This document shows, in pieces, positions 20,070-34,768 of a DNA stretch of 49,692 nucleotides. Source of the DNA: Syntrophaceae bacterium (lineage in GTDB: Bacteria; Desulfobacterota; Syntrophia; Syntrophales; Smithellaceae); the NCBI GenBank assembly GCA_003139775.1, contig PLGI01000091.1:1-49692 (forward strand), read 5' to 3'. Numbering within the stretch: position 1 is the stretch's first letter; the number at the start of each line of letters is the position of its first letter. The notes below the pieces were generated by a model. It was not told the DNA's origin. It saw nothing but the letters and a program-made list of their open reading frames with translations, and did no database searches. Position numbers and translations under genes: made by a program.

Positions 20070-20262
20070 GCTGAGCGTTATTGTTGAAACTCCAATTACG
20101 AAAGCGCAGCGCAGCGGAATTGGTAAGTTGTAATGAGACCCAAACTTCAGAAACATAGTGCATACCCTAAAGGGCATCTGCGACTGAAGCTTGGAGGTCG
20201 AATTATCCCGCGAAGCGGAGGGTTTAATATCCCGCAGCAAACTGCGGGATATTAAACCCGTG
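20070..20262 (-). repeat. Family B hairpin mosaic
   Basis: Contains TTATTGTTGAAACTCCAATT, AATGAGACCCAAACTTCAG, GTCGAATTATCCCGC and a strong hairpin TTTAATATCCCGCAG-caaa-CTGCGGGATATTAAA at about 20223-20257. The last lies directly after the Hrb-type gene stop on the minus strand and may act as its terminator. Confidence 0.75.
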
Positions 20263-20953: not shown

Positions 20954-20984
20954 TATTATTATCCTCATGTAAGTTTTTCAATAG

Positions 20985-21731: not shown

Positions 21732-22322
21732 ATGAAATATCAGGAATTTTTGGAACGCGATCATTTTAATTTAGAAGAAATTATGGCTTTTGCTTATGGG
21801 TCGCTGGTAACTGATCCTCCCGCGGGTTTTGATGGAAGGCTTCCGGCTCCTCCCTTCCTCATGTTTGATCGCATATTATTGATTGAAAGCGATGGTAAAC
21901 AAGGCAGAGTGATTGCCGAACAGGATATTCGAATGGACGCTTGGTATTTTCAATGTCATATGCCGGGAGACCCTGTGCAACCGGGTTGCCTTTGTGTCGA
22001 TGCCATCTGGCAATCACTTGGTTTCTATTGTATCTGGCGCGGCGCTTTGGGCTCCGGCCGGGCTCTTGGCTGTTCCGGTGTTACATTCAATGGTCAAATT
22101 CGCCCCTTCAACAAATGTGTCCGCTACGAAGTCGATATTCGGCGTTATTCGCGATTAAAAGAATCAGGCGCAAGCCTGGGGATCGGTGACGGCCGGATTT
22201 ATGTGGATAATGAATTGATTGCTGCTGTTACTCAGGCGCGGACAGGAGTGTTTAAGGAGATTGCTTACAAAGATTACCCGCTTCGGTCGAAAAATTCTAT
22301 CGGTGGAATCATGGAAAGGTAG
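21732..22322 (+). CDS. FabA-type 3-hydroxyacyl-ACP dehydratase/isomerase
   Basis: 196 aa, a single hotdog domain with the FabA pattern 'RLPAPPFLMFDRILLI', 'WYFQCHMPGDPVQPGCL' and 'CVDAIWQSLGFYCIWRG'. Catalytic His76 and Asp90 are 14 residues apart, exactly as His70/Asp84 of E. coli FabA; the Asp (not Glu) marks FabA rather than FabZ. FabA dehydrates 3-hydroxydecanoyl-ACP and can isomerise trans-2 to cis-3 double bonds, so it could plant a cis double bond in the cluster's product. It is the first gene of the lipid cluster, with AGAGAAAAAAC upstream of the ATG. The C-terminal 25 residues extend past the core. It could instead be the housekeeping FabA, though its setting argues for a special role. 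Confidence 0.92.
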   Translation: MKYQEFLERDHFNLEEIMAFAYGSLVTDPPAGFDGRLPAPPFLMFDRILLIESDGKQGRVIAEQDIRMDAWYFQCHMPGDPVQPGCLCVDAIWQSLGFYCIWRGALGSGRALGCSGVTFNGQIRPFNKCVRYEVDIRRYSRLKESGASLGIGDGRIYVDNELIAAVTQARTGVFKEIAYKDYPLRSKNSIGGIMER

Positions 22323-22394
22323 ATTTATACCAAGTCGCATTCAAATTAAAACGATCATAAAAAAATATTAGAATATTTTTTTACGGAAACTATT

Positions 22395-22808
22395 TTGAGT
22401 ATAATAAAAAAAACAGCGCTTTATTTTGCTCAAAAAGAATTTTGCAGGGCGGCAATAAATGAGCACGCTGATCTGAGTATTTTTAAAGAAAAACTCTCAG
22501 CCTCCGTAATTGCCGGTCTTATTTTGATTACTATTAGTTATATTCTCGGTATACCGGCCGTATTTATAGTAGGGGGAATCTCCGCCTGGCTGAAAAACCC
22601 AATGGTTGGGGTTATCGGTATTCCTTTGATTTATGGTTTTTCCTGGCTGCTTTTGATGTTGGGTCTGTATCTTGCCGGACCTAAATATGGAAAGGCGCTT
22701 GGCCATTGGGTAGTGCGTGTTACACTGGAAAAAATTCTCGGTGACGAGGCAAATACAATCAGGCCTTTGCCGCAAGAAGGTTCGGAAAAAGACATAATAA
22801 AAAAATGA
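22395..22808 (+). CDS. Membrane protein with two or three hydrophobic segments, lipid cluster
   Basis: 137 aa from a TTG at 22395. Strong hydrophobic segments lie at about 33-58 and 65-94 ('SASVIAGLILITISYILGIP', 'GFSWLLLMLGLYLAGPKYG'), with charged ends. No known family comes to mind. It lies between the FabA-like gene (72 bp away) and the first acyl carrier protein gene (39 bp away), all on the plus strand. A role in anchoring or delivering the lipid product at the membrane is a guess based on place alone. Confidence 0.7.
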   Translation: MSIIKKTALYFAQKEFCRAAINEHADLSIFKEKLSASVIAGLILITISYILGIPAVFIVGGISAWLKNPMVGVIGIPLIYGFSWLLLMLGLYLAGPKYGKALGHWVVRVTLEKILGDEANTIRPLPQEGSEKDIIKK

Positions 22809-22847
22809 AGCGCGTTTGTAGACGCGAGAAAAAAATAGAGGTGTTAA

Positions 22848-23120
22848 ATGAGTCAAATTGAAGGATTGATCGGTGAACTTAAAGTTAAAATTATTCAAAC
22901 ACTCGGGCTGATTGACATTGGTCCTGAAGACATCAAAGATGATTCTCCGCTTGTCGGTGGAGATATGGGAATTGATTCCATTGATGTGCTTGAACTGGTG
23001 ATGATGATTGAAAAAGACTATGGCGTTAAAATTGAAAGCAAAGAGCTGGGCGTCAAAGTTTTCGCCTCCGTGCGCGCGCTGGCCACGCACATTTTCAAGA
23101 ACCAACGGCATAAAGGTTAA
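22848..23120 (+). CDS. Acyl carrier protein, first of the lipid cluster
   Basis: 90 aa. The phosphopantetheine attachment Ser is Ser44 in 'MGIDSIDVLELVMMIE', the standard D-S-(I/L) ACP motif. The four-helix pattern is complete and acidic on helix II. AGAGGTGTTAA lies upstream of the ATG. Carriers inside clusters usually serve a dedicated synthase instead of bulk fatty-acid synthesis. Together with a second ACP at 27485, which differs in sequence, the cluster has two carriers, possibly for two stages or two substrates. Confidence 0.93.
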   Translation: MSQIEGLIGELKVKIIQTLGLIDIGPEDIKDDSPLVGGDMGIDSIDVLELVMMIEKDYGVKIESKELGVKVFASVRALATHIFKNQRHKG

Positions 23121-23131
23121 TCTTAATTTGT

Positions 23132-23337
23132 ATACCATTTCGATTTCAAAGGATAACGAGGCGGCAAGGAGGAGGTGACGAGGCGTATATTTTAATACGT
23201 TGAGGAAACCGATGCCGCAGCCAACAAAGTTAGCCAAAGACCGGGTGCACATCCCGCAGGGGGGCGCATAATAAATAAATTTTACGTCACCGGTAATTAC
23301 CACCTGCAAGGTGATGACTTACAAGCGAATTGGTATT
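23132..23337 (-). repeat. Family A repeat, long form, inside the lipid cluster
   Basis: Reverse orientation to the copies at 1265 and 11647: it opens ATACCATTTCGATTTCAAAGG and ends AAGCGAATTGGTATT. The core GAGGCGGCAAGGAGGAGG and CAGCCAACAAAGTTAGCCAAA is followed by the extra segment with GGTAATTACCACCTGCAAGG, as in the 11647 copy. It separates the first ACP gene from the B12-radical SAM gene. Confidence 0.85.
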
Positions 23338-23369
23338 ACGCTTACACAGAAATAATGACCCTTTAGCGC

Positions 23370-23530
23370 TTTATTGTTGAAACTCCAATTCCGAAAGCGA
23401 ATAACCTAAAGGTCACTATAGGCGCAGCGGAATTGGTAAGTTGTAATGAGACTCGCTGAAAATGAACGAAGTGAAGTTTGAAGCGTTAGTCGAATTATCC
23501 CGCGCAGCGGAGGGTTTAATACCCGTGATG
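23370..23530 (-). repeat. Family B hairpin mosaic before the B12-radical SAM gene
   Basis: TTATTGTTGAAACTCCAATT, AGCGGAATTGGTAAGTTG, TAATGAGACTCGCTGAAAAT, GTTAGTCGAATTATCCCGC, GCAGCGGAGGGTTTAATACC: the same string of modules as 20070-20262. It runs to within 20 bp of the radical SAM start codon, which has no clear ribosome site. Confidence 0.75.
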
Positions 23531-23547
23531 AAATTTTTGTTCATATT

Positions 23548-24897
23548 ATGAAAGTACTGCTAATTTCGGCAAACACTCTGAGAATTCCCTATCCGGTATA
23601 TCCGCTGGGGCTGGATTACGTCGCCGGTTCTTTGGATTCCCGTTATCAAACCAAAATTGTAGATTTGAACGATTTTACCAGATCCGATGAGTTGGCGGCA
23701 TTGATTCGAGAGTTTTCTCCCGATTTTGTCGGAGTATCGATCAGAAATATTGATAACACGGATGTAATCAACTGCCGGGGCTTTCTGTCCGAATACCAGA
23801 ATTTAATACACCAGATAAGGATAAATTCAGCGGCCAGGATAATTCTAGGCGGCAGCGGTTTTACTATTTTCCCCGTTGAGTTCATGCAGGCGCTGGATGC
23901 TGATTATGGCATTGCCGGCGAAGGCGAAAGGTTTTCCTTGCTCTTGGAAGCGCTGGAAAAAAATGCGGACGCTAAATCAATACCCGGTATTGTAACGAAA
24001 GAAACAACCGGTATTGCTTATGAACCTTGGAACGGCGAAATTAAAAGACGTTTTGATCCGGAAACTCCACATACACAATTTTATCTATCCTACGGTGGCA
24101 TGCTTAACCTGCAAACAAAAAGGGGGTGCCCTTTTCATTGCAGTTACTGCACTTATCCTCATATTGAAGGCAGCCGGATGCGGTTTTTCCCGCCCCGCGA
24201 AATAGCTCGTAGCGCTCGCGAGTTGCAGGATGCCGGCGCTAAATATATTTTTATCACTGATTCCGCTTTTAACGCCAGTTATGATCACAGTCGGCAGGTT
24301 GCAAAGGCTTTTATTGAAGCCCGAGTGTCCGTGCCGTGGGGAGGTTTTTTTGTTCCCACTGTGCCTCCGGTTGATTATTATAAACTAATGGTGGACGCCG
24401 GACTGAGCCATGTGGAATTCGGCACAGAATCTTTATCTGATACGATACTTGCCAATTTACATAAACCTTTTCCCGTTCGTGATGTTTTTGCCGCTCATAA
24501 AGTCGCTCTCGAGGCCGGTCTGCACATTGCCCATTATTTTCTGTTAGGCGGACCCGGCGAAAACAGACAGACTCTTCAGGAAACATTGATTGGCCTGGAT
24601 CGTTTGGAGCGGGCGGTTTTTTTCTTCTTTTGCGGTATCCGTATTTACCCGCACACCGCGTTATATGATGTTGCCCTGCGAGAGGGTCAAATTACCGCGG
24701 AACAAAATATTCTGCCGCCCGTTTTTTACCGCTCGCCGGAAATAACCGCTCAAGAAATTATGCAGATGGTGGAAAATCACGCCAATGGCCGGTTGAATTG
24801 GATTATAGGCGCAGGTGAAGCAAAAGCAACCCGTGTTTTGCCCAAACTCTATAAACGGGGATTAACAGGGCCCTTGTGGGAGTACCTGATTCAATAA
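23548..24897 (+). CDS. B12-binding radical SAM enzyme of the lipid cluster
   Basis: 449 aa. Residues 1-150 form a cobalamin-binding Rossmann-like domain ('PLGLDYVAGSLD', 'FVGVSIRNID', 'IILGGSGFTIFP'). The radical SAM barrel follows, with cluster ligands C194, C198 and C201 in 'RGCPFHCSYC', then 'FITDSAFN' and 'FGTESLSDTILANLHKPFP'. B12-radical SAM enzymes include methyltransferases that attack unactivated carbons and enzymes that close rings. In its setting of ketosynthases and carriers it most likely acts on an acyl chain. To my recollection, relatives occur in the ladderane candidate clusters of anammox bacteria and in Desulfotalea-type deltaproteobacteria. The exact reaction is unknown. 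Confidence 0.88.
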   Translation: MKVLLISANTLRIPYPVYPLGLDYVAGSLDSRYQTKIVDLNDFTRSDELAALIREFSPDFVGVSIRNIDNTDVINCRGFLSEYQNLIHQIRINSAARIILGGSGFTIFPVEFMQALDADYGIAGEGERFSLLLEALEKNADAKSIPGIVTKETTGIAYEPWNGEIKRRFDPETPHTQFYLSYGGMLNLQTKRGCPFHCSYCTYPHIEGSRMRFFPPREIARSARELQDAGAKYIFITDSAFNASYDHSRQVAKAFIEARVSVPWGGFFVPTVPPVDYYKLMVDAGLSHVEFGTESLSDTILANLHKPFPVRDVFAAHKVALEAGLHIAHYFLLGGPGENRQTLQETLIGLDRLERAVFFFFCGIRIYPHTALYDVALREGQITAEQNILPPVFYRSPEITAQEIMQMVENHANGRLNWIIGAGEAKATRVLPKLYKRGLTGPLWEYLIQ

Positions 24898-24969
24898 TCC
24901 CAAGTTGGATTTATTCGGCAGTCGATAACTTTATTGGCAACGCATTTACGATTTCTTAAGGGGTAATAA

Positions 24970-25761
24970 ATGAAAAGGAAGTTGCTGTTTAGCAATCCGG
25001 CTGCGGTTACGGGAATAATTTTTTTGGCTGTCGCCGCGGCAGTTTTTTTTATTAACTCCCTGTTGGCGGCCGCCGTTGCCCTTTTTTATATTCTTTTGTG
25101 TGTTGTTGCTTCTTTTTTCCCGCAAAGCAATTTTTTTCTGCCAGTGATAAGCCGTGGCAATGTTGGGCAGAATCTGGTCGCGCTCACTTTTGATGATGGC
25201 CCGGCCCAACCGACAACAAGACAAATTATGGATTTGCTTGATAAGTATTCAGTGAAAGCGACTTTTTTTGTTTCCGGCGCCAATGCTTTAAGTCATCCGG
25301 AAATCATCAGGGAAATAATTGCCCGCGGGCACACCATTGGCAACCATTCGTTTAATCATAATCCCTTTGTGATGCTTAGAAGTTATAATTATCTTTATCA
25401 GGAAATATTTACGGTTCAGGAAGTTCTGAAAAAAATGGGAATACAAACACTTGCCTTCCGGCCGCCGGTGGGAATAATTAATCCCAAACTGGCCCCGATT
25501 CTGGATAAATTAGGGATGTTTTGTGTAACCTTTAGTTGCCGCGCTTTTGACGCCGGCAATCGCCGTGTTAAAAATCTTAGTTCCAGAATACTTAAAAAAG
25601 TTAAGGCCGATGACATCATCCTGCTGCACGATGTGCTGCCGCGAAGTAAAGAAGACAGCGTTATTTTATTGGCGGAAATTGAAAATATACTTTCGGGGCT
25701 TATTATAAAGGGACTGAAAATCGTTCCTCTCTCTGATTTAATCGGCAGAGATATTAATTAG
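24970..25761 (+). CDS. Membrane-anchored polysaccharide deacetylase-like (NodB) protein
   Basis: 263 aa. Two hydrophobic segments at about 12-32 and 34-52 anchor it. The NodB domain then shows 'ALTFDDGPAQP' (D75 catalytic base, D76 metal), 'GNHSFNHNPF' (the two metal His), 'FRPPVGIIN' and 'DIILLHDVLP' (motif 5). These enzymes remove N-acetyl groups from sugars, or act on related amides, with a divalent metal. All key residues are present, so it should be active. GGGGTAATAA precedes the ATG. Its place in a lipid cluster suggests a sugar- or amide-bearing head group, but it may be an unrelated passenger. Confidence 0.9.
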   Translation: MKRKLLFSNPAAVTGIIFLAVAAAVFFINSLLAAAVALFYILLCVVASFFPQSNFFLPVISRGNVGQNLVALTFDDGPAQPTTRQIMDLLDKYSVKATFFVSGANALSHPEIIREIIARGHTIGNHSFNHNPFVMLRSYNYLYQEIFTVQEVLKKMGIQTLAFRPPVGIINPKLAPILDKLGMFCVTFSCRAFDAGNRRVKNLSSRILKKVKADDIILLHDVLPRSKEDSVILLAEIENILSGLIIKGLKIVPLSDLIGRDIN

Positions 25762-25771
25762 AAAAGGTACC

Positions 25772-26630
25772 TCAAGACTTAATTCCGGCTTTCTTTCTTA
25801 TCCATCCGGGGGCAACCTTGCGGCCCGATAGTTTCTGGAATCCAACCGGGAATAATCGCTTTAGCCAATCCATCACGTAGGCGTCGGATCCGACCATGAT
25901 GCGAAGCTTATCCTTTTTGATACCGGCGATGATTATCTGTGCCGCCTTGTCTGCCGTTGTTTTTGCGAAAACCCGGTTGAAAACCGCAAGCGCTTCTTCC
26001 CGTTTAAGTGAGGTGTCCGAAGCAGGTATAAAACCTGCCGTTGTTGGCAATGTTGGTTTTAATCCCGCCGGGGTGGACGCAGGATACTTTGATTTTGGTA
26101 TCGGCAAGTTCCTGTGCCAGTGTTTCGGTGAATCCCCGAACGGCGAACTTTGCTGTGCAGTAAGGTCCGTTATTGGGATTGGTGAAGATGCCGTTCACGC
26201 TGCTGATATTGATGATGTGGGCGGAATCCTGCTTTTTGAGGTATGGGAGAAACTCCTTGCACCCATAGATCACGCCCCACAAATTAATGCCCATTAACCA
26301 TTCAAAGTCTTCATAGCTTAGGTCCTCTATGGTCTCCGTGATAACGACTCCCGCGTTGTTGATGATGATATGAACTTCGCCGTGGGCCTTCACCACGTCA
26401 TCAGCGTATTGCTTGACCTGCTTATGGTCCGAAGTGTCCACCTTATGGGTGGTAATCCGCAAGTTTTTGCTTCGTGAGCACACCATGTCAGCGGTTTCCT
26501 TAAGGCCTGTCTCGTTGATATCGGATATCGCCAGATGACAACCCTCATCCGCCAGATTCAGCGCAAGAGATCTTCCGATGCCGGACGCGGCTCCGGTAAT
26601 GGCCACGATTTTATCCTTAAGATTCTTCAC
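25772..26630 (-). pseudogene. Short-chain dehydrogenase/reductase with a frameshift
   Basis: Starts with GTG at 26630 (AAAGGAGA upstream). The N-terminal part shows 'AITGAASGIGRSLA' (NAD(P) binding), 'IINNAGVV', the catalytic Ser in 'IINISSVNG' and the YxxxK in 'YCTAKFAVRG', then 'HPGGIKTNIANNGR'. Near 26030-26040 the frame breaks; the C-terminal ~85 residues ('KREEALAVFNRVFAKTTADK', 'DWLKRLFPVGF') continue to 25772 in the next frame. So either the gene is broken or there is a base error in the sequence. All catalytic residues precede the break. It is the only minus-strand gene in the cluster and the only candidate reductase, so its state matters. Confidence 0.88.
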
Positions 26631-26844
26631 AAATGTCTCCTTTTACGCATTATAGATTCTGTATCTTTTTTCCCCGGCCTGAAATATATTTAAAAACAGA
26701 TCAAACATTTTGAACTGAAAAACTGCGAAACTTTTTTGTGAAAAATTTTGAAACGACTTCTGGATTCTTTAAGGATGTGTATTTATAATCATATCCATTT
26801 TTCTTGTCAATGTGAAATAAAGCAAACATCCATATTGTTAATTG

Positions 26845-27005
26845 TACATATCCCCCACAAAAGCAAGCTTTGGGGGGATAATTCAACTAACAAATATTAC
26901 TTTACTACGTCAGTGAGTCTCAAATCCCCATTCGCTTCGCTCAGGGGATAATTCGTCCAGCAAGTTTCAGTGCACTGCGTTTCTGAAACGTGGGTCTCAT
27001 TAAAA
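26845..27005 (+). repeat. Family B hairpin mosaic before the FabZ-like gene
   Basis: TCCCCCACAAAAGCAAGCTT, TTGGGGGGATAATTCAAC, CCCCATTCGCTTCGCTCAGG, GGATAATTCGTCCAGCAAG, the stem-loop AAGTTTCAG-tgcactgcgttt-CTGAAACGTGG and GTCTCATT. The region 26631-26844 and 27006-27075 shows no gene. Confidence 0.75.
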
Positions 27006-27075
27006 TTTTAGTTGAAAAATAATCAATGATATGAATTTATACATTTTAGCGTTAATTTAACTTTGACGTTAACCA

Positions 27076-27465
27076 ATGGGGTATAATTTATTGGAAAGTC
27101 AATGGAGTTTATTAAAAGAGATTAAAGTAGTTAATAATAATTATATTGAAGCATTAGCTGATGTGCCTGCTGATTCACCCTGGTTTTCAGGGCATTTCCC
27201 CGGTGAGCCGATTCTTCCGGGAATAGCTTTAGTTTACATCGCCGAGCAGGCCATCATCCAGGATGCGTTGGCAAAAGGTGAGCAGGTTCAGTTGTACGCG
27301 CTGAAAAGAGTGAGATTCACCCAGCCGGTGCGGCCTGGAGAAACTCTATCGCTAAACATAATCAGCGAAGAAGCGGGTGAAGAGATTTTGTTTTCCTTTA
27401 AAATTACGAATAAAGAAAATACTGTATGCAGCGGCGCAATAGTTGCAAAAAAGATAAATAAATAA
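27076..27465 (+). CDS. FabZ-like hotdog protein with Tyr at the catalytic acid position
   Basis: 129 aa. The signature 'FSGHFPGEPILPGIALVYIA' matches FabZ, with His40 in place. FabZ has its catalytic Glu 14 residues later (His-...-Glu-Ala-Met-Ala-Gln). Here that site (residue 54) is Tyr, and a Glu appears three residues on (E57, 'YIAEQA'). So it may not be a normal dehydratase: it could use E57, do a different hotdog reaction, or act as a structural partner. Later strands ('LYALKRVRFTQPVRPGETL') are FabZ-like. The ATG has no good ribosome site. It begins the second plus-strand block of the cluster, 19 bp before the second ACP. Confidence 0.87.
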   Translation: MGYNLLESQWSLLKEIKVVNNNYIEALADVPADSPWFSGHFPGEPILPGIALVYIAEQAIIQDALAKGEQVQLYALKRVRFTQPVRPGETLSLNIISEEAGEEILFSFKITNKENTVCSGAIVAKKINK

Positions 27466-27484
27466 TTATAGAAGGAGGATAGTG

Positions 27485-27757
27485 ATGCCTGCAAGTCACG
27501 ATGTAAAAGGCATTATCCGGCATGTGGCCGAAATTATTATTGAGGAACTTAAATTAGAAGACGTTACGGCGGAGACATTTAATCCGGATATGGATTTGGT
27601 GGATGAACTGGGCATCGATAGTATGGACCTTGCCACTATTGCTTTAGTCCTGCAGGATGAATACAAGATAGTGATAGACGAAGACGATTATCCCAAGTTG
27701 AAAACCATTCGCCTGATCGCTGATTATATTGAGGAAAAAATTTCCGCGAAGAATTAA
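27485..27757 (+). CDS. Acyl carrier protein, second of the lipid cluster
   Basis: About 90 aa from the ATG at 27485, with GAAGGAGGATAGTG upstream, the best ribosome site in the cluster. The attachment Ser is Ser46 in 'DELGIDSMDLATIALVLQDE'. Helix I and III are longer and more acidic than in the ACP at 22848, and the two share little beyond the motif. It directly follows the FabZ-like gene and is 16 bp from the first short radical SAM gene, which suggests that it carries the acyl chain for those enzymes. Confidence 0.93.
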   Translation: MPASHDVKGIIRHVAEIIIEELKLEDVTAETFNPDMDLVDELGIDSMDLATIALVLQDEYKIVIDEDDYPKLKTIRLIADYIEEKISAKN

Positions 27758-27773
27758 TAGAAGTTAATTGTCT

Positions 27774-28853
27774 ATGCCCATTAATAATAAAGAATCGCTG
27801 GAATCAGCCAAGCCGAAATTTTCCGAACTCTTAGCCCCGCCGGAAGTGAGAGCGCGTTGGGAAAAAGTCAGAAAATATTTTTTTCTGCGGGAATCAACTT
27901 ATGACATGTCTAACCGCTGCAATATTCGCTGCGACGGCTGTTATTATTTTGAAGGAGAAAAACAGTTTGCCAAAGAGATTGGTGACGCGGAAGCATGGCG
28001 CAGGCTGATGCAGGCCGAAAAAACCCGCGGCATCACTTATGTGGTTCTGGCCGGAGCAGAGCCATCGCTGGTGCCGGAACTATTAGATGTATGTTATCAG
28101 GAAATGCCGCTGGGCAGTATTGCCACCAATGGCTATAGAAAAATTCCGGAATCAGTCGGCTACAAAATACATATTTCCGTTTGGGGTAATGATGCAACCA
28201 GCCTGCGTGTGCGCAAAGCTAAAAATCTTTTAAAAAAACAGATTGAAAATTATAAAAATGATCCGCGCGCGGTATTTGTTTACACCTTTACACGGGAAAA
28301 TATCGATGAAGTAAAAGATGTCGCCGAAGAGCTTGTTGCCCACAGCTGTAAACTAACCTTTAATGTTTTTTCTTCGCCGGTCGGTTACACAGGAAATCTG
28401 CGGCATGATGATGAATCTTTTGCGCGAACAAGACAAATGATGATAGAGCTTTTGAATAAATATCCCCGAAATGTTCTTTTTTCCGCTTACAACGCCGTGG
28501 CGCATACTCATAAAAAAGGTTTGCACGATCTATACAGTTGTTCATATCCCCGCCGGAATCCTTCGCAGGATATCGGTTTGGGGAGGTCTTTCCGGCAATA
28601 CAGGACGGACCTTAATTGGGACAGGTCTGTCGCCTGTTGTGTGCCGGATACGGATTGCGCCGATTGCCGTCATTACGCCGCCGGTTCCGCGGTCGTCACG
28701 GCGCGCCTTTACCGCCATGTAAACAATCCGGCTGCTTTTAAATCCTGGCTGGATTATGTGGATACTTATCTGGCGGTCTGGGTGATGGGTTATGAAAAAG
28801 GCGAAAATCTTTGCGCGGAAATTATAAGTCCGCCGCATGCGGCGATAAATTAA
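27774..28853 (+). CDS. Radical SAM enzyme with C-terminal Cys cluster, first of a pair
   Basis: 359 aa from ATG 27774; a TTG at 27768 is an alternative. Cluster ligands C49, C53 and C56 lie in 'NRCNIRCDGCYYF'. 'LAGAEPSLVPELL' replaces the usual GGEP SAM-binding motif with AGAEP. The C-terminal third has 'SCSYPRR' and 'ACCVPDTDCADCRHYAAGS', giving Cys that could hold an auxiliary iron-sulfur cluster, SPASM-like. No B12 domain. It is a paralogue of the next gene (same layout: 'YDMSNRCNIRC' against 'YDVTNRCNLRC'). Reaction unknown; an acyl-ACP substrate is inferred from the ACP just upstream. Confidence 0.88.
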   Translation: MPINNKESLESAKPKFSELLAPPEVRARWEKVRKYFFLRESTYDMSNRCNIRCDGCYYFEGEKQFAKEIGDAEAWRRLMQAEKTRGITYVVLAGAEPSLVPELLDVCYQEMPLGSIATNGYRKIPESVGYKIHISVWGNDATSLRVRKAKNLLKKQIENYKNDPRAVFVYTFTRENIDEVKDVAEELVAHSCKLTFNVFSSPVGYTGNLRHDDESFARTRQMMIELLNKYPRNVLFSAYNAVAHTHKKGLHDLYSCSYPRRNPSQDIGLGRSFRQYRTDLNWDRSVACCVPDTDCADCRHYAAGSAVVTARLYRHVNNPAAFKSWLDYVDTYLAVWVMGYEKGENLCAEIISPPHAAIN

Positions 28854-28914
28854 AGAAGTCATTGCTGACAAAGACAGCGCTTTAATTGCGATTGATATAA
28901 GTAAGGATAAGTTG

Positions 28915-29913
28915 ATGAAAACCGTTAGTACATTGTTAGATAAAGACTGGCACGAAAGATACAGACGAATTTCCAGCCTTAATATCCGCAGTTCCATATA
29001 CGATGTAACCAACCGCTGCAATTTGCGCTGCAAGGGCTGTTTCTTCTTTTCTTCTGGGGAACATCAGGCGGCCCAAGAAGAAATGGATATAAAAAAATGG
29101 GAAGATTTTATCGACCGGGAAAAAGCGCGCGGAGTAAATCTGGCGATTTTGATCGGCGGCGAGCCGACTCTTTGCATGGACCGCGTTGAAGCTTTTTACA
29201 AACGCCTGCCCACATATTGCGCCACCAATGGTCTGATTAAAGTTCCCCGGGAAAAATTCCCCGACTTGATGGTGGGAATTTCACTTTGGGGCAGTAGCGA
29301 AGATGAAAAGACTCTCCGCGGGCGCGACACTTTTGCTATTTCCAGTAAAAATTATGCCGGCGACGCTTACACTTATTATCTTTATACTATAACGCCACCA
29401 CAGTTAGGAAAAATTGAACCCGTAATTAAAAGGATTGCTGATGTCGGTTTGAAAGTGCATCTGCAACTTCTATCGAATGACGAGGGCGTTAACGGCTTTT
29501 CGTGGCGCGAAGGCGAGCTCAAAGATTTACGCTCCGAAATGGACGAAATGCTGGATGGATACCCACAGACTGTGATTTCCAGTAAATATTATCACGAAAT
29601 TATCACCACAGGCAGGATGATGGAGCGTACCTTTGGTTGGAACGAATGCCCATCGGTCACCGAATCTCTGGACAATAGAAAACCACAACCCCGTCGTTTG
29701 ATCAATTTTTCTCGCTGGGCTTCCGATTTAAAAACAGTTCATCGCTGCTGCACATCGGCAACTCGTGATTGTTCCACCTGCAAGGATGGCGCGGCTCATA
29801 TGAGTTGGATAATGGTCAACAAGCGGGAACACATGCGCTCGACCAAAGATTTACAGGGCTGGATCGAAGTTTACGAAATGTTTGCCAAACTATACCACTT
29901 TATTCCTTGGTAA
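28915..29913 (+). CDS. Radical SAM enzyme with C-terminal Cys cluster, second of a pair
   Basis: 332 aa from ATG 28915, with AAGGATAAG upstream. Cluster ligands are C35, C39 and C42 ('NRCNLRCKGCFFF'). 'LIGGEPTLCMDRV' is a standard SAM-binding GGEP. The C-terminal part has 'WNECPSV' and 'HRCCTSATRDCSTCKDGAAH', the same Cys spacing as its partner with one extra residue. It differs from the gene before it by having GGEP instead of AGAEP and a 'SWIMVNKREHM' tail. Two tandem paralogues next to carriers and ketosynthases suggest successive steps, or a heterodimer in which one member is less active. Unknown product. Confidence 0.88.
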   Translation: MKTVSTLLDKDWHERYRRISSLNIRSSIYDVTNRCNLRCKGCFFFSSGEHQAAQEEMDIKKWEDFIDREKARGVNLAILIGGEPTLCMDRVEAFYKRLPTYCATNGLIKVPREKFPDLMVGISLWGSSEDEKTLRGRDTFAISSKNYAGDAYTYYLYTITPPQLGKIEPVIKRIADVGLKVHLQLLSNDEGVNGFSWREGELKDLRSEMDEMLDGYPQTVISSKYYHEIITTGRMMERTFGWNECPSVTESLDNRKPQPRRLINFSRWASDLKTVHRCCTSATRDCSTCKDGAAHMSWIMVNKREHMRSTKDLQGWIEVYEMFAKLYHFIPW

Positions 29914-29984
29914 TATCCGACATTTTTTGATATAGACACTACCAATTCTAAATCAAAGGGAACCCCGACGAATGCCGGGTGCTA

Positions 29985-30106
29985 TTTGTCATGCCTAGCC
30001 CCGCCGAAGCGGGACAGTTCAACTAACGAATTCCAGTTCACTGCGTGACTGTAATTCGAGTTTCACTGCCGCTTCAATATCATCTTTGATTTAGAAATGG
30101 TATAAC
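29985..30106 (+). repeat. Mixed repeat fragment (family B unit, then family A right end)
   Basis: GCGGGACAGTTCAACTAACG and the stem-loop GAATTCCAG-ttcactgcgtga-CTGTAATTCGAG with TTTCACT are one family B unit. It is followed by TGCCGCTTCAATATCATC and AGAAATGGTAT, the right end of family A. The two families are directly joined. The region 29914-30164 holds no gene. Confidence 0.65.
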
Positions 30107-30164
30107 ATCCCCGGTTTGCTTTGGGGTTTCATGCCATTGATATCTTTTAGGAACATTGATTACT

Positions 30165-31415
30165 ATGGCTTCCAAGAAAACATTAATAATGGGTTACGAT
30201 GCCGTGTCTTCTTTAGGGACGGATATGGAAGCCCAATGGCAGCGTGCCATAGCTGGAGATTGTGGAATAGGAAAGTTGACTAGATTTCCGCTTACCGCCG
30301 ATTTTCCGGTGCGTGTTGCAGGGGAAGTTGCGGAAGTTGATTTGCGCCCATATCCTTTTTTACAGCCGCGGGAAATGGCGCATTGGACGTCGCCGATCTT
30401 CAAATATGCCCTGCTGGTTGTGCATCGGGCTCTGGAGAAAAGCGGAATTGTAATTGGGCCGGAAATCGCGCCGCGGGTGGCGATAACGTTTAGTTCAGCA
30501 GTCGGCGGGCTGGATGCGGTGCTGCAGGCTGATCGTCTGATAATTGCGGAAGGCAAGATGCCTCATCCTTTTACCAACCCCAATTCCTGCATCAATATGG
30601 TTGGCGGCAAGGTCTCCATCCTCACGGGCGCTACAGGTCCAATCTGTTCGACTATTACAGCCTGTGCAACGGGAGTAACTTCGTTGATTATCGGCGAAAT
30701 GCTGTTACAAAGAAATATGGCGGATGTGGTCATCTGCGGTGCTGTGGATTTCCCTCTGGTTGAGCCGATTGTTGCCGGATTTGCCACGATGAACGGCGCT
30801 TACCGTCCGAAAGATGGACAGAAGGAAGAGCCGCCGGAGAAAACGAGTCGGCCTTTTTCCGTCAACAGGCGGGGTTTTGTCGTTTCCGAAGGCGCCGGTT
30901 GCATTATTTTGGCAACGGATGAATTTGCCAGGGCACATGGGCTGAAATCAAAAATAGAAATGGCCGGATGGTCAATGACTTCCGATGCCAGCCATTTTGT
31001 TTCGCCCAACTTGACAACGGTGCAAAGATGTATCGTGGAAACTATTGCCAATAGCGGATTACAGCCGAAAGATATTGATGCGGTCAATGCGCACGCTACA
31101 TCCACAAAAGTAGGCGATAAGGTAGAGGCTGACGCTCTTCACAATATTTTCGGCAAAAATATTCCGCCGGTATCGGCGAATAAATCACAACTCGGTCATG
31201 CGATGGGCGCGTCCAGCGCCATTGAAGCCATACTGGCCATGGAAGGAATGATTAAAGAAACTTTACTTCCCACGATAAATTATGTTCCTGATCCGGCAAT
31301 CAAAATTGACTGTGTTGCCGAAGGCGCCAGAAAATTGAGTCAGGAGTTTGTATTGAAAAACGCGTTTGGTTTTGGCGGATGCAATTCCTGTCTGGTCTTG
31401 CACAGAATAGAATAA
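30165..31415 (+). CDS. Beta-ketoacyl-ACP synthase (FabF-like), first of a pair
   Basis: 416 aa from ATG 30165 (AGGAAC upstream); a TTG at 30156 is less likely. The thiolase fold is complete with active Cys167 in 'TACATGVTS', His in 'NAHATSTKVGD' and second His in 'NKSQLGHAMGAS', and it ends 'NAFGFGGCNSCLVL'. So it is a true elongating condensing enzyme, not a chain-length factor. It joins an acyl group with malonyl-ACP in the cytoplasm. The neighbouring ketosynthase is only distantly similar. Two condensing enzymes could form a heterodimer or act at different chain lengths. It starts about 250 bp after the radical SAM pair. Confidence 0.94.
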   Translation: MASKKTLIMGYDAVSSLGTDMEAQWQRAIAGDCGIGKLTRFPLTADFPVRVAGEVAEVDLRPYPFLQPREMAHWTSPIFKYALLVVHRALEKSGIVIGPEIAPRVAITFSSAVGGLDAVLQADRLIIAEGKMPHPFTNPNSCINMVGGKVSILTGATGPICSTITACATGVTSLIIGEMLLQRNMADVVICGAVDFPLVEPIVAGFATMNGAYRPKDGQKEEPPEKTSRPFSVNRRGFVVSEGAGCIILATDEFARAHGLKSKIEMAGWSMTSDASHFVSPNLTTVQRCIVETIANSGLQPKDIDAVNAHATSTKVGDKVEADALHNIFGKNIPPVSANKSQLGHAMGASSAIEAILAMEGMIKETLLPTINYVPDPAIKIDCVAEGARKLSQEFVLKNAFGFGGCNSCLVLHRIE

Positions 31416-31433
31416 AAAAAATATAGTGAAATT

Positions 31434-32699
31434 ATGAAAGCACCTAAAAACAGAAAAGTATTTGTCGTCGGTTACGGCGCTGCCACCCCGCTGGGGGCCA
31501 CCTTTGAGAAAACATGGAAAAGGGCGGTAAAAGGGGAGGCGGGTTTCCGCAAGGTAACGCGTTGTAAAGTAGAATCGGCCTGCGACATAGTCGGAGAAAT
31601 TCCGGACTGGTATCCACTGGAGCTTGATTTTACCGATGCGAAGGAAGTTTATAATTGGAACGCGGCTTTTGTGATTTTGACTATGGCTGTCTGCAAAGAG
31701 GCGCTGCAAAATTCAGGAATTTCCATTGATGATCAGATTGCTCCGCGAATGGCTTGCCTCATCGGTTCGGCGCTCAATGGATCGGATGCTTTTCGTATAG
31801 CCGCGCACGATTTGGAACACCGCGGGCCGCTCAGGGTCAGCCCTTATTTGCTGCCTAATTTATGCGCAAATCTTCCCGCCGGCAAAGCGGGAATGCTGTT
31901 AAAATTTACCGGGCCGATTTTTTCGCCGCAGGGCGCTTGCGCTTCCGGCAACCATGCAATCGGTATCGGAGCAAGAATGATCAGGGATGGCGATTGCGAT
32001 TTCGTCCTGGCCGGCGGCGCGGACGCCCCTATCTTGCCGGAGCTTATTCATGGTTTTGCCAATATGAACGCCACGATCAAGGTTCATCCTGACGATCGCG
32101 CTTATACTGATCCGGCAAAAGCTTCCCGGCCTTTCAGCGTTGACCGCAAAGGTTTTGTTCTTTCGGAAGGGGCGGGCGTGGTTGTTCTCGCGGCGGAAGA
32201 AATGATCAAAGCTTACGGACTTAAACCCCGGGCCGAAGTTTTGGGTATCGGGTGGACTTCGGATGCCCATCATTATACCAGCCCTAATGCTGCTACAATT
32301 ATCCGCGCTATCCGGGAAACAATTGAAGATGCCGAATTGAAACCGGAAGATATCCAATATGTCAATGCCCACGGTACCTCCACGCCTAAAGGTGACAGCG
32401 CCGAAGTAAAGTGTCTGCGGGAAGTATTTGGCAAGAAAATAGAAAAGATTCCTGTATCCTCAAACAAGTCGCAGTTGGGACATACGCTGGGCGCGACCGC
32501 GGCCATTGAAGCCGCTTTGACCATCGAGGGAATGAAGAGGGGCATTATCCTGCCCACAATTAACTATGTACCGGATCCTGATTTTGCCGATATTGATGTT
32601 GTGCCTAATGAGGCCCGCAAACAAAAATACGAAATTTCGCTTTCCAACGCGTTTGGATTCGGCGGAACAAATTGCTGTGTTATTTTTAGAGGAGTGTAA
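31434..32699 (+). CDS. Beta-ketoacyl-ACP synthase (FabF-like), second of a pair
   Basis: 421 aa, 18 bp after the first ketosynthase. Active Cys169 lies in 'QGACASGNHAIG', the His residues in 'NAHGTSTPKGD' and 'NKSQLGHTLGAT', and the C-terminus is 'NAFGFGGTNCCVIF'. All three catalytic residues are intact, so unlike type II polyketide systems neither subunit of the pair is a degraded chain-length factor. The N-terminal half differs from its neighbour in loop length ('LEHRGPLRVSPYLLPNLCA'), which hints at another acyl substrate. The thioesterase starts 2 bp later, so these genes are translated as one block. Confidence 0.94.
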   Translation: MKAPKNRKVFVVGYGAATPLGATFEKTWKRAVKGEAGFRKVTRCKVESACDIVGEIPDWYPLELDFTDAKEVYNWNAAFVILTMAVCKEALQNSGISIDDQIAPRMACLIGSALNGSDAFRIAAHDLEHRGPLRVSPYLLPNLCANLPAGKAGMLLKFTGPIFSPQGACASGNHAIGIGARMIRDGDCDFVLAGGADAPILPELIHGFANMNATIKVHPDDRAYTDPAKASRPFSVDRKGFVLSEGAGVVVLAAEEMIKAYGLKPRAEVLGIGWTSDAHHYTSPNAATIIRAIRETIEDAELKPEDIQYVNAHGTSTPKGDSAEVKCLREVFGKKIEKIPVSSNKSQLGHTLGATAAIEAALTIEGMKRGIILPTINYVPDPDFADIDVVPNEARKQKYEISLSNAFGFGGTNCCVIFRGV

Positions 32700-32701
32700 A
32701 A

Positions 32702-33181
32702 ATGAAACCTAAACCGTTTAAACCGGAAATATACAGTAATGATGAGCTTTATGTGCGCGACGTTACCACCGGCCTTGTCTGGCATCGTTCGATATACCGG
32801 ACCTTATATGTCGATACGGATCGCTCACAAGTGGTTTATCATTCCAATTACCTGCGTTATTTTGAATTCGGCCGGACTTCATTGATGCGCGATGTCGCTT
32901 ATTCCTACAAAGAAATCGAGGAAAGCGGCTATGTTTATCCGATTTTTGATTTGGGCATCAGCTTTTATCAACCTTTGTATTACGACGATTTAATGTATAT
33001 CTATACGCGGCCGGTAAATTTGGAGCGGGTGCGTTTGCAGTTTGACTATATCATCACGCACGCGGAAAAGGGACATATAATCTGCATCGGCTTTACAAAA
33101 CATTGCGCTTTGAATTTGACGGGCACCCCAGTGGCCGTCGATCCCAAAACGGTTCAATTATGGAAATCGTTCCCCGGTTAA
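32702..33181 (+). CDS. 4HBT-family acyl thioesterase
   Basis: 159 aa, one hotdog domain. 'RTLYVDTDRSQVVYHSNYLR' is the 4-hydroxybenzoyl-CoA thioesterase-type signature with the catalytic Asp before 'Y-H-x-N-Y'. Then come 'YFEFGRTSLMRDV' and 'DLGISFYQPLYYDDLM'. Such enzymes hydrolyse acyl-CoA or acyl-ACP and often end chain growth in small lipid or polyketide clusters. It overlaps the next gene by 22 bp and begins 2 bp after the ketosynthase stop. It may release the finished chain, or edit stalled chains. Confidence 0.9.
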   Translation: MKPKPFKPEIYSNDELYVRDVTTGLVWHRSIYRTLYVDTDRSQVVYHSNYLRYFEFGRTSLMRDVAYSYKEIEESGYVYPIFDLGISFYQPLYYDDLMYIYTRPVNLERVRLQFDYIITHAEKGHIICIGFTKHCALNLTGTPVAVDPKTVQLWKSFPG

Positions 33182-34026
33182 ATCAAAAAATACGGTATCC
33201 CTGGAATATTGAGGTATCCCCGTATCTGCATGACCACCATTTTGAAGGAAAAATCGTTCTGCCCGCGGTGGAAGTGTTAATTGTTTTGTCTAATGTTGTT
33301 AAAATAAATTTTCCCAAAATAAACGTCAGTTGTCTGTATAAGGCGCACTTTTCCCGGTTTTTATTAATTTCGCCGGGTGCGCGGCGTCTGGAAGTATTTG
33401 TTGATATAGAAACTACCGATGATGGCGGCATCATTGCTTCGCTCCTAACCTCGGTAAAATCGAAGGACGGCACGATCAGCCGCACGGTCGAACATGCCTG
33501 CGTGGCGTTTGCCGCCGCTGATTCCGCGCCATCTTCCGTGCCTCCTTTTCGTGTTGTGAATAAACTGGAAGGAGATTGCATAAGCGTGCCCTCAACTACT
33601 ATTTACCGTGAGTTGGTGCCTTTTGGGACGGCTTATCAAAACATTATCGGTGATTTATCAGTTTCACCTAAGGGCGCACTGGCTTATCTTTCGGGTGGGG
33701 GCAACGAGGCGGATGAAGATTTGCTTGGGTCTCCGTTTCCTCTGGACGCGGCAATGCACGCGGCCTGTGTTTTGGGGCAGCGCTTTAGCGGCATTGTTCC
33801 CTTTCCCACAGGATTTGAAAAAAGAATAATTTATAAAAAGACAAAAAAAGGAGGCACCTATATTGGCCGGGTTGTGCCGGTGAAGGTCAATCATGAATCG
33901 CTGATATTTGATGCCTGGATTTATGATTTAGATGGTATAATGTACGAAAGCATCAGTGGCATTCAAATGCGTGATGTGTCGCAAGGCCGCCTGCGTCCAC
34001 CGCCGTGGATTAAAGCCGATTTATAA
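33160..34026 (+). CDS. Stand-alone double-hotdog dehydratase (polyketide-synthase DH-like)
   Basis: 288 aa from ATG 33160, which overlaps the thioesterase end by 22 bp; the ORF extends to 33103 only through that gene. The first hotdog half has 'LHDHHFEGKIVLPAVE', fitting the HxxxGxxxxP dehydratase motif with His26. The second half has 'PFPLDAAMHAAC', fitting Dxxx(Q/H) with Asp196 and His200. So both catalytic residues of a modular-PKS dehydratase domain are present on a free protein. It would turn 3-hydroxyacyl into enoyl chains. Finding it beside FabA- and FabZ-like proteins gives this cluster three hotdog dehydratase-like proteins. Confidence 0.85.
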   Translation: MEIVPRLNQKIRYPWNIEVSPYLHDHHFEGKIVLPAVEVLIVLSNVVKINFPKINVSCLYKAHFSRFLLISPGARRLEVFVDIETTDDGGIIASLLTSVKSKDGTISRTVEHACVAFAAADSAPSSVPPFRVVNKLEGDCISVPSTTIYRELVPFGTAYQNIIGDLSVSPKGALAYLSGGGNEADEDLLGSPFPLDAAMHAACVLGQRFSGIVPFPTGFEKRIIYKKTKKGGTYIGRVVPVKVNHESLIFDAWIYDLDGIMYESISGIQMRDVSQGRLRPPPWIKADL

Positions 34027-34049
34027 AAAGTATTTGTTTTGCGTGTCCC

Positions 34050-34162
34050 CCGCTGGCGGGGGATTAAGGAGGTGGATGTGTTGATGTAGCTGTGATGTTC
34101 ATCAGTTTACAGCTTGAAAACCTTTATCCACCTCCGTCACTGCGTGACACCTCCGCCAGCGG
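34050..34162. repeat. Long imperfect palindrome
   Basis: Outer arms CCGCTGGCGG / CCGCCAGCGG and inner arms GGAGGTGGAT / ATCCACCTCC enclose a smaller hairpin with AGCTGT / ACAGCT; GTCAC-TGC-GTGAC sits in the right arm. The whole 113-bp stretch could fold as one cruciform-like structure. It lies between the dehydratase and PlsY-like genes, and is unlike families A and B. Confidence 0.75.
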
Positions 34163-34189
34163 AGGATATTATAAAGTTTCTGAAAAAGT

Positions 34190-34768
34190 ATGATAAAAAT
34201 AATTTTAATTTATCTTTTTGCTTATCTTGCCGGGTCCGTAAATTTCGCCATTATTTTTTTTAAACTAACCGGCAGGGAAGATCCACGCCTGAGCTTCAGC
34301 GGCAACGCGGGAACCACAAATGTTTACCGGCAGGCGGGATATTTCTGGGCGACTGTAATATTATTACTCGATATCGGCAGGGCTTTGGTTGTGGCGGCTG
34401 TAGCCGTGCATTTTCTGGAGGGAAAGTATTTACCCTGGGCGGGTTTTTTTCTTGTCTTGGGAAATAGTTTCCCCTGCTTTCACGGCTTCCGCGGCGGCAA
34501 AGGTGTGGCCAATTATCTAGGCTTTACAGCTCTTATCGCGCCGTGGGCGGCTCTCATCGCCGCGGCAATCTGGCTTGCTGTTTACGGGATTGTCCGGGTT
34601 ACTTTCATTGCTTCATTTTTCATGATTTTTACTCTGGCTTGTGGACAGGCTTTTACTCTTGACTGGCAATTCAGCGCGATAACTGGCGCCCTCGCGACAT
34701 TTCTGCTGATCTTATTTAATCATAGAAAAAATATTATCAACTACCGGAAAATTGCTGACACTCAATAA
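34190..34768 (+). CDS. PlsY-like glycerol-3-phosphate acyltransferase
   Basis: 192 aa with about five membrane helices. PlsY motifs are visible: 'GSVNFAIIFF' (GS near helix 1), 'SGNAGTTNVYRQAG' (for GSGNxGATNxxR) and 'HGFRGGKGVANYLG' (for the FkGGKGVA loop). PlsY uses acyl-phosphate to acylate glycerol-3-phosphate at the membrane. This copy departs from the consensus (A for P, T for A), so it is probably a special paralogue of the housekeeping enzyme that moves the cluster's acyl product onto a glycerol backbone. It ends the cluster, about 160 bp after the dehydratase. Confidence 0.88.
   Translation: MIKIILIYLFAYLAGSVNFAIIFFKLTGREDPRLSFSGNAGTTNVYRQAGYFWATVILLLDIGRALVVAAVAVHFLEGKYLPWAGFFLVLGNSFPCFHGFRGGKGVANYLGFTALIAPWAALIAAAIWLAVYGIVRVTFIASFFMIFTLACGQAFTLDWQFSAITGALATFLLILFNHRKNIINYRKIADTQ

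Follow-up and report, generated by a model that had tools for sequence, protein, structure and literature searches.

A type II acyl-chain gene cluster with tandem radical SAM enzymes in Syntrophales, akin to yet distinct from gene sets proposed for aryl polyenes and ladderane lipids

Introduction

What does a Smithella-like bacterium of the Syntrophales build with a set of acyl-chain enzymes that is accompanied by three radical S-adenosylmethionine (SAM) enzymes? The question is raised by a 14-gene type II acyl-chain cluster at positions 21732-34768 of a stretch of 49,692 nucleotides (PLGI01000091.1), called the window here, which is the entire contig C55 of the source genome (G000); the nearest named relatives of this genome are Syntrophaceae and Smithella genomes. 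The original prediction, made from the window alone, took the cluster for one acyl-chain system with a ladderane-like inventory that makes an unusual chain and esterifies it, an interpretation that as a whole is partly supported. Gene sets proposed for ladderane lipids and for aryl polyenes are its relatives, but it is not identical to either. The cluster probably belongs to a dedicated anaerobic polyene-type acyl synthase whose chain would be edited by radical SAM enzymes and esterified to glycerol-3-phosphate.

Type II fatty acid synthase (FASII) clusters have been proposed for the ladderane lipids of anammox bacteria, and similar sets are described from Desulfotalea, Geobacter and Pelobacter (PMC2649909). 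In the Cariaco Basin, antiSMASH labelled clusters of Desulfobacterota and of further phyla as 'ladderane', and their function in non-anammox bacteria was reported as unknown (PMC9902471). Ladderane-like clusters of Desulfobacterota and other phyla, product unknown, are already published in these two sources, and ladderane assembly is itself described as an open question, anammox bacteria not having been grown in pure culture (PMC9821293). The Cariaco Basin clusters share broad kind and phylum with the present one; the radical SAM pair, the PlsY link and the split layout described below go unmentioned in the available portions of that report. A literature search covering few subscription papers turned up only general reports of ladderane-like clusters; neither a tandem radical SAM pair accompanied by its own PlsY nor a split layout was found described.

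Genomes and searches

The cluster genes were scanned against Pfam and NCBIfam. The locus set is the best 80 of 237 relatives from a scan with rSAM2, the second of the two tandem radical SAM enzymes, and it leans to close relatives because only these 80 were kept; by record title it comprises Deltaproteobacteria/Desulfobacterota, Spirochaetes and a single Planctomycetota genome, and almost all of these are metagenome bins. Gene order was counted over the 29 loci with full 10-kb flanks, which we divided into 14 Smithella-like and 15 non-Smithella loci, and the presence of single genes over the loci with enough flank, at score cut-offs of our own setting. The genome samples comprise 395 genomes of the phylum, 155 of the order, 51 of the own family and 246 of Planctomycetota. 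The leading candidates of each genome were scored (for example five for rSAM2 and three for the phytoene-desaturase-like protein in the phylum), so absence in a genome is no proof, which also weighs against the pathway favoured here. The p-values for co-occurrence with the phytoene-desaturase-like protein are from Fisher tests, and related genomes do not count as independent. The aryl polyene cluster of Escherichia coli CFT073 served as the comparison set, its ape gene letters being assigned by us.

Conservation and gene order

The core of the cluster consists of the second acyl carrier protein (ACP2), the radical SAM enzymes rSAM1 and rSAM2, the ketosynthases (KS) KS1 and KS2, a thioesterase (TE) and a double-hotdog dehydratase (DHD). 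It is complete in 24 of the 29 full-flank loci, in all 24 in the order of the window. Because of this collinearity the cluster is not a chance grouping, and the shared core supports the view that these genes form one conserved acyl-chain system. Co-conservation in other genomes, which had been set beforehand as the first of two tests of the original prediction, held, and did so beyond the phylum as well. Counted singly, the most constant genes are rSAM1 (71/71 loci), ACP2 (65/66), the dehydratase (DH) gene DH2 (61/63), KS1 (71/75), KS2 (58/64), TE (54/60) and DHD (51/57). They are followed by the genes for the first acyl carrier protein (ACP1, 40/50), the B12-binding radical SAM enzyme (38/50), the PlsY-like acyltransferase (39/53), the NodB-like deacetylase (34/54), the small protein TM137 upstream of the core (26/50) and the FabA-type dehydratase DH1 (18/48). 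The cluster is patchy in the phylum and near-universal in its own family: rSAM2 occurs in 28 of 395 phylum genomes (E<=1e-45), always at 70% identity or more, in 79 of the 155 genomes of the order (best E below 1e-60) and in 46 of 51 in the own family.

PlsY and esterification

The PlsY-like glycerol-3-phosphate acyltransferase (34190-34768, + strand; PF02660, 124.9 bits) is the sole PF02660 match found in the source genome. Across the order such a match is present in 81 of 155 genomes, namely 75 of the 84 that are cluster-positive and 6 of the 71 that are cluster-negative (p=3.6e-26). The 84 include five with a partial rSAM2 match or a match of rSAM1 strength (G131 and G136 by E-value alone); with these recounted as negative, the numbers with and without PlsY become 71 and 8 against 10 and 66 (p=1.1e-23). 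Outside the own family, with the five kept as positive, they are 32 and 4 among cluster-positive and 4 and 64 among cluster-negative genomes (p=4e-18). Two of the PlsY-bearing cluster-negative genomes, G012 and G094, score 184 and 163 bits, and full-length matches in cluster-positive genomes score 105-130. Since PlsY tracks the cluster in the order, it looks dedicated to the cluster product. A dedicated PlsY would, by the chemistry of its family, point to a glycerol-phosphate ester, and glycerol-phosphate lipids would therefore be the place to seek the product. The esterification that had been proposed thus gains support from the tracking (75/84 against 6/71).

A housekeeping role for this PlsY, considered because no other was found in the genome, is disfavoured, as 65 of the 71 cluster-negative genomes are without a PlsY match (PlsX and PlsB being outside the search). 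In the order as a whole 74 of 155 genomes give no PlsY match and may therefore make lysophosphatidic acid otherwise.

Radical SAM enzymes

The tandem enzymes rSAM1 (27768-28853, +) and rSAM2 (28912-29913, +) are 29% identical. Each has the CxxxCxxC motif, at C51xxxC55xxC58 and C36xxxC40xxC43, and scores 25.3 bits (under the cut-off of 29.5) and 31.2 bits, respectively, against PF04055. Candidate auxiliary cysteines, part of the original prediction, are seen in both as matching C-terminal residues: positions 258, 290, 291, 297 and 300 of rSAM1 (74 sequences) and 246, 279, 280, 287 and 290 of rSAM2 are near-invariant. The Pfam scan of the window genes gave no SPASM match to either protein. A structural model of rSAM2 (predicted local distance difference test score, pLDDT, 87) has neighbours of SPASM/twitch type in the PDB, with BlsE and SkfB at Z 17.5; SuiB, viperin and anSME are also near, and the tetraether synthase GDGT-MAS follows at Z 12.8. 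No reaction is readable from the model because many SPASM/twitch enzymes match about equally.

The third enzyme (23548-24897, +) is a B12-binding radical SAM protein that exceeds the cut-off of TIGR04072, rSAM_ladder_B12 (387.9 bits, cut-off 360), over positions 1-443 of 443, which bears out that part of the ladderane-like inventory. Its best sequence match in the PDB is a tryptophan C2-methyltransferase (6wte).

Four Planctomycetota genomes have radical SAM proteins with 32-35% identity to rSAM2 in other neighbourhoods (L136-L139); in three of the four (L151-L153) the neighbours look alike by eye.

Further parts elsewhere in the genome

It had been noted that the cluster is without a phytoene-desaturase-like (PDH-like) gene, a malonyl transferase and an intact ketoreductase (KR). 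This stands for the window cluster and fails for the genome, in which a reading of the other ketosynthase loci revealed these genes on contigs C139, C75 and C18, respectively. Contig C139 (L171) has a phytoene-desaturase-like flavoprotein (PDH, PF01593), an ApeR-like ketosynthase (KS3) and PlsC. Contig C18 (L173) has a B12-radical SAM enzyme, a KS, a chain length factor-like (CLF-like) protein, an ACP, an LpxL-like protein, LolA, a ketoreductase of the short-chain dehydrogenase/reductase (SDR) type and a DH, and a malonyl-transferase-type gene (PF00698) lies on C75 (L172). In the CLF-like protein Glu replaces the active Cys, and PF13723 is matched at 22.1 bits, under the cut-off of 25. That the system as a whole is without a desaturase-like gene, a ketoreductase or a malonyl transferase was thus not borne out, and the first two of these adjoin the core in some other genomes.

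The 15 non-Smithella full-flank loci have beside the core a KS (10), a CLF-like gene (10), a KR (6), a DH (7) and LolA (4), with PDH in the flanks of three and KS3 in those of two; in the Smithella-like loci KS, CLF-like, KR, DH and LolA are each found in 0 of 14. Near-complete joint loci occur in G200 (L197), G481 (L199) and G516 (L200 with L201). Within the own family, DH, KR, LolA, the accessory family x6, PDH, KS3 and PlsC are contiguous in G035 (L203), and the run LolA-x6-PDH-KS3 is contiguous in G031, G032, G048, G060 and G067, not in G000 or G036. The pathway thus looks split in this lineage and more divided still in G000.

The PDH-like gene also tracks the core. A PDH-like protein at E<=1e-90 is found in 17 of the 395 phylum genomes, 16 of which are rSAM2 carriers (p=4e-20, or 9.5e-11 without the eight own-family genomes); the lone carrier without rSAM2 is G202, a draft of 82% completeness. 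Of the eight genomes outside the own family that have both genes, six carry PDH and rSAM2 on one contig (G192, G200, G235, G237, G481 and G516; not G407 or G498), and by our tally all six families with PDH fall within the 11 with rSAM2.

The source genome also holds further sets of this kind. At the end of the 7-kb contig C150, L170:4834-7312 encodes a KS that has Cys-His-Lys-His and, after it, a KS-like protein in which these positions are Ala/Ala/Lys/Glu, a pair that by its residues is of the KS-CLF-like type. The locus on C75 (44000-62000), beyond its FabD-like gene (PF00698), is a further type II set with a FabH-like gene (by eye), an SDR, a weak FabZ-like gene, a KS, an ACP, a PlsC-like gene and a phosphopantetheinyl transferase (PF01648).

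Proposed pathway

Gene content, the expected catalytic residues, gene order, co-occurrence and linkage in other genomes are observed; the pathway below is built on them. The window would contain its radical SAM core, with the other parts on at least two further contigs of the source genome. Ketosynthases, an aryl-polyene-type KR and several dehydratases would extend a malonyl-derived chain on dedicated ACPs to give a polyene. A polyene is proposed because many of the parts are of aryl-polyene type and because there are precedents for conjugated chains: when enoyl reduction is skipped in highly reducing polyketide synthase (PKS) systems, conjugated double bonds result, and the polyenes made by aryl polyene enzymes contain 6 to 7 such bonds (PMC8358021). 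The PDH-like flavoprotein, the TIGR04072 B12-radical SAM enzyme and rSAM1/rSAM2 may then edit the chain, perhaps desaturating or methylating it or closing rings; we infer the structure of the chain from the enzymes. The chain would next pass to PlsY, with PlsC acting at the second position, to give a glycerol-phosphate lipid, as the chemistry of the PlsY family and its tracking of the cluster suggest. LolA and the LpxL-like protein, both encoded on C18, may serve in envelope handling.

Several points weigh against this pathway. Its reactions and product are read from genes, and the rSAM2 model would assign that enzyme to the SPASM/twitch type only. The window cluster alone is without KR and PDH, and it is other genomes, rather than G000 itself, that connect the three contigs. 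Strict searches (E<=1e-90) find PDH in 16 of the 28 rSAM2 carriers and leave 12 without it. The second B12-radical SAM enzyme of the source genome, on C18, has no counterpart at 150 bits in the 80 loci. The CLF-like protein of C18 has no ApeC match, and its assignment is weak. KS1 and KS2 are nearer FabF (204 and 260 bits) than ApeR (140 and 161) and may therefore make ordinary extensions. That enoyl reduction is skipped is presumed from the loci read, in which no enoyl reductase was seen, though no search was aimed at one. The acyl phosphate that PlsY would use is a further point, PlsX being outside the searches made.

Relation to aryl polyene clusters

The original prediction set the cluster apart sharply from aryl polyene clusters, a contrast that is not upheld, many of the parts being of aryl-polyene type. 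The window has an ApeE-like ACP, an ApeI-like DH and an ApeK-like TE; an ApeR-like KS and an ApeD-like acyltransferase lie on C139; and C18 has an ApeO-like KS, an ApeQ-like KR, an ApeP-like DH, LolA (as ApeL) and an ApeJ-like acyltransferase. KS3 matches ApeR at 300 bits and 41% identity (FabB 211 and FabF 198 bits), the KR matches ApeQ at 204 (FabG 185), and the KS of C18 matches ApeO at 90 (ApeR 79, FabF 69). Lower scores link DH2 to ApeI (31 bits), the C18 DH to ApeP (34), PlsC to ApeD (42), the LpxL-like protein to ApeJ (38) and LolA to ApeL (21). Candidates for the KS-CLF pair (ApeO-ApeC), with a weak CLF member, and for the FabB-like KS of ApeR type lie outside the window, on C18 and C139.

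These counterparts would also suit an aryl-polyene-like outer-membrane lipid pathway of known kind to which tailoring radical SAM enzymes have been added. It would also be suited by the ApeH-like AMP ligase (66.5 bits) that 5 of the 80 loci have, and G481 and G516 too, and by the family of MMPL-methyltransferase fusions present in 6 of the 80. However, at the cut-offs used there is no AMP ligase (ApeH) or MMPL in the window cluster or in the 14 full-flank Smithella-like loci (the rest of the genome being unsearched). Additionally, the two FabF-like ketosynthases, the PKS-type dehydratase, PlsY and NodB are extra, being without counterparts among the annotated genes of the E. coli cluster, in which no radical SAM enzyme is annotated whereas the window has three. 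A known kind of aryl polyene pathway is thus considered unlikely, although it keeps real weight.

An ordinary fatty acid supply

A second possibility is that the cluster is a further supply of ordinary fatty acids, making unsaturated chains via the FabA-type enzyme, with the radical SAM genes as unrelated neighbours. The presence of a FabA-type dehydratase together with FabF-like ketosynthases speaks for such a supply. However, the radical SAM pair lies inside the collinear core of 24/29 full-flank loci, rSAM2 keeps at least 70% identity in all 28 carriers of the phylum, and the FabA-type gene is less conserved (18/48). The source genome also has a separate AcpP-FabF locus (L169). An ordinary supply is therefore improbable, and a dedicated polyene-type synthase remains the favoured reading.

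Relation to ladderane loci

The comparison with ladderane loci stands for the B12-radical SAM enzyme and, distantly, for NodB and the PDH-like protein; the tandem radical SAM pair was not found in five putative anammox genomes. Among 246 Planctomycetota genomes a true rSAM2 is seen in one, G534, at 77% identity, and five more gave weak matches with identities of 31-32% and E-values between 3e-14 and 4e-13. HZS_alpha is present in four of these five, which are taken as anammox for that reason; the fifth is a draft without it. The anammox comparison is limited to these five genomes, and among their leading candidates (8 of 28 scored in G633) there was no close rSAM2 match and no match of rSAM1 strength; the same search in G534 gave both.

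In G633 the locus L162 has a NodB-like gene (PF01522), ketosynthases, a methyltransferase, an AMP ligase, a SPASM radical SAM enzyme of 368 amino acids and a TIGR04072 protein (440 bits), as well as KR, ACP, DH, MMPL and PDH-like genes. In our reading it fits the Kuenenia kuste3352-3335 cluster of PMC2649909. The counterparts in L162 are 38% (B12-radical SAM), 26% (PDH) and 27% (NodB, over 106 residues) identical to those of the source genome. The radical SAM pair gives local matches of 30-38% over 61-89 residues to the non-B12 radical SAM enzyme of the anammox cluster, which is not shared.

The anammox ladderane FASII set and the window thus have in common the TIGR04072 B12-radical SAM enzyme, ketosynthases, ACP, a NodB-like protein and a dehydratase, with a PDH-like gene and a KR elsewhere in the source genome. 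In contrast, the window has tandem rSAM1/rSAM2, an ApeK-like TE, a PKS-type DHD and PlsY, and is without the methyltransferase, AMP ligase and 368-residue SPASM enzyme of L162. Pfam scans found no phytoene-desaturase-like gene in the window cluster, unlike the anammox FASII cluster, and no methyltransferase family among the scanned genes of 21732-34768, whereas the anammox cluster has a SAM-dependent methyltransferase (AmxMT1 type) and L162 has one as well. Since the identities are modest, we conclude that the parts probably share ancestry with ladderane loci and do not form the same pathway.

Membership of TIGR04072, above its cut-off, and distant counterparts of NodB, PDH, KS and B12-radical SAM enzyme in a hydrazine-synthase-bearing genome would also agree with a ladderane or other concatenated-ring lipid made by this cluster outside anammox bacteria, with the B12-radical SAM enzyme forming the rings. 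However, the search of the five putative anammox genomes (HZS_alpha in 4/5) found neither rSAM1 nor rSAM2, which rank with the best-conserved genes of the cluster, PDH and NodB are only 26% and 27% identical to the anammox proteins, and the scanned cluster genes include no methyltransferase family. Furthermore, no ladderanes were detected in Desulfotalea psychrophila despite a partly syntenic cluster, according to PMC2649909, the rSAM1/rSAM2 status of that organism being unchecked. A ladderane product is on this evidence highly improbable. It is scarcely credible that the cluster supplies polyunsaturated chains to OleABCD, for although long-chain polyunsaturated hydrocarbons occur in Desulfotalea together with its partly syntenic cluster (PMC2649909) and we read a hydrolase-AMP ligase fusion in L104 as OleBC-like from its Pfam domains, this link was dropped because the fusion has strong matches (E<=1e-150) in 23 of 395 genomes and in 0 of the 28 rSAM2 carriers, a result within chance (p=0.39) that removes support without excluding the idea.

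The dedicated polyene-type synthase with an esterified product may be taken one step further, tentatively and with more doubt than confidence: the product could be an undescribed class of anaerobic membrane glycerolipid, its polyene chain cyclised or otherwise rebuilt by the B12-radical SAM enzyme and rSAM1/rSAM2, in a pathway of common ancestry with that of ladderanes that yields another carbon skeleton. Should the chain prove new, it would represent a novel kind of lipid and might serve as a biomarker of syntrophic and sulfate-reducing bacteria. The anammox comparison narrows the candidates, the B12-radical SAM family being shared and the tandem pair not seen in those anammox genomes that were searched. 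The cluster is also present in some named strains, for instance Desulfatitalea alkaliphila M08but (L110), which opens related radical SAM lipid chemistry to tests on a cultured organism.

Gene inventory and neighbouring genes

Every gene named in the original prediction is present in 21732-34768 by Pfam, NCBIfam and alignments. The cluster consists of two gene runs, 21732-25761 and 27076-34768, with gaps of -22 to 427 bases within the runs and 1,314 bases between them. Residues are called catalytic here on general knowledge of the families; DH1 His76/Asp90, DH2 His40, DHD His45/Asp215, TE Asp40 and the NodB triad are at least 97% conserved in 19 to 65 aligned sequences.

The first run begins with the FabA-type 3-hydroxyacyl-ACP dehydratase DH1 (21732-22322, +; PF07977, 128.5 bits), in which His76 and Asp90 are near-invariant. 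It passes NF003509 (188.5, cut-off 124), does not reach TIGR01749 fabA (147.8, cut-off 238.15), aligns with E. coli FabA at 42% identity (161 residues) and has homologues in 19 of the 80 loci, all Smithella-like. TM137 (22395-22808, +), a small hydrophobic protein of 137 residues that the original prediction did not name and that has no Pfam or NCBIfam match, is probably a membrane protein. ACP1 (22848-23120, +; PF00550, 41.9 bits) scores 50 bits against aryl-polyene ApeE and 22 against E. coli AcpP, and so is nearer the former. Downstream of the B12-radical SAM gene is the NodB-like deacetylase (24970-25761, +; PF01522, 101.8 bits) with a near-invariant metal triad, Asp76/His126/His130.

The second run opens with the ApeI/FabZ-like dehydratase DH2 (27076-27465, +; PF07977, 41.0 bits; PF22818 ApeI-like, 31.4 bits, cut-off 28.5; His40 near-invariant) and ACP2 (27482-27757, +; PF00550, 41.1 bits), which scores about alike against AcpP and ApeE. 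Beyond the radical SAM pair are the FabF-like KS1 (30156-31415, +; Cys170-His313-His348) and KS2 (31434-32699, +; Cys169-His313-His350), 43% identical. Cys-His-Lys-His is in place in both, which confirms the claim of two ketosynthases with complete active sites. TE (32702-33181, +) is a 4HBT hotdog thioesterase of ApeK-like type (PF13279, 47.1; TIGR00051, 74.4, cut-off 68.7; ApeK, 54 bits). DHD (33160-34026, +; PF14765, 24.1 bits, cut-off 23.7) is a stand-alone double-hotdog dehydratase, for which we favour the ATG at 33160 as the more likely start over the TTG at 33103. Its His45 and Asp215 (numbered from the TTG) are near-invariant over 45 sequences. The DHD model (pLDDT 92.6) matches PKS dehydratase domains at Z up to 25.7 and a root mean square deviation of 3.0 over 256 aligned residues, and by this fold and the His/Asp dyad the protein is assigned as a PKS-type dehydratase.

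Fusions occur in related clusters. An MMPL exporter is joined to a methyltransferase in L115:16045-19137, and a KS to a CLF-like half in L092:2028-4211 (727 residues). Relatives of DHD with a C-terminal phosphopantetheinyl transferase are found in L092 (18086-19621) and L096. Delta proteobacterium NaphS2 has, upstream of the core, a gene that joins an MMPL-type transporter with a histidine kinase (L128:4249-7230). The accessory family x2 was considered as an exporter and dropped, as histidine kinase domains, not MMPL alone, unite its members (Pfam, two members).

Between the two runs is a frameshifted SDR gene on the opposite strand (25772-26630, -; PF00106, 182.3 bits on 26004-26630), which in this assembly is matched in two frames by intact homologues of 285 residues in L056 and L062. 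As just these 2 of the 80 loci have it (score >100), it is probably unrelated to the cluster, and it was ruled out as the cluster's ketoreductase by its frameshift, strand and rarity. Divergent from the cluster, a flavin reductase-rubredoxin protein (20252-20968, -) is present in 21 of the 80 loci, each of them Smithella-like, and could be a mere neighbour or an electron donor.

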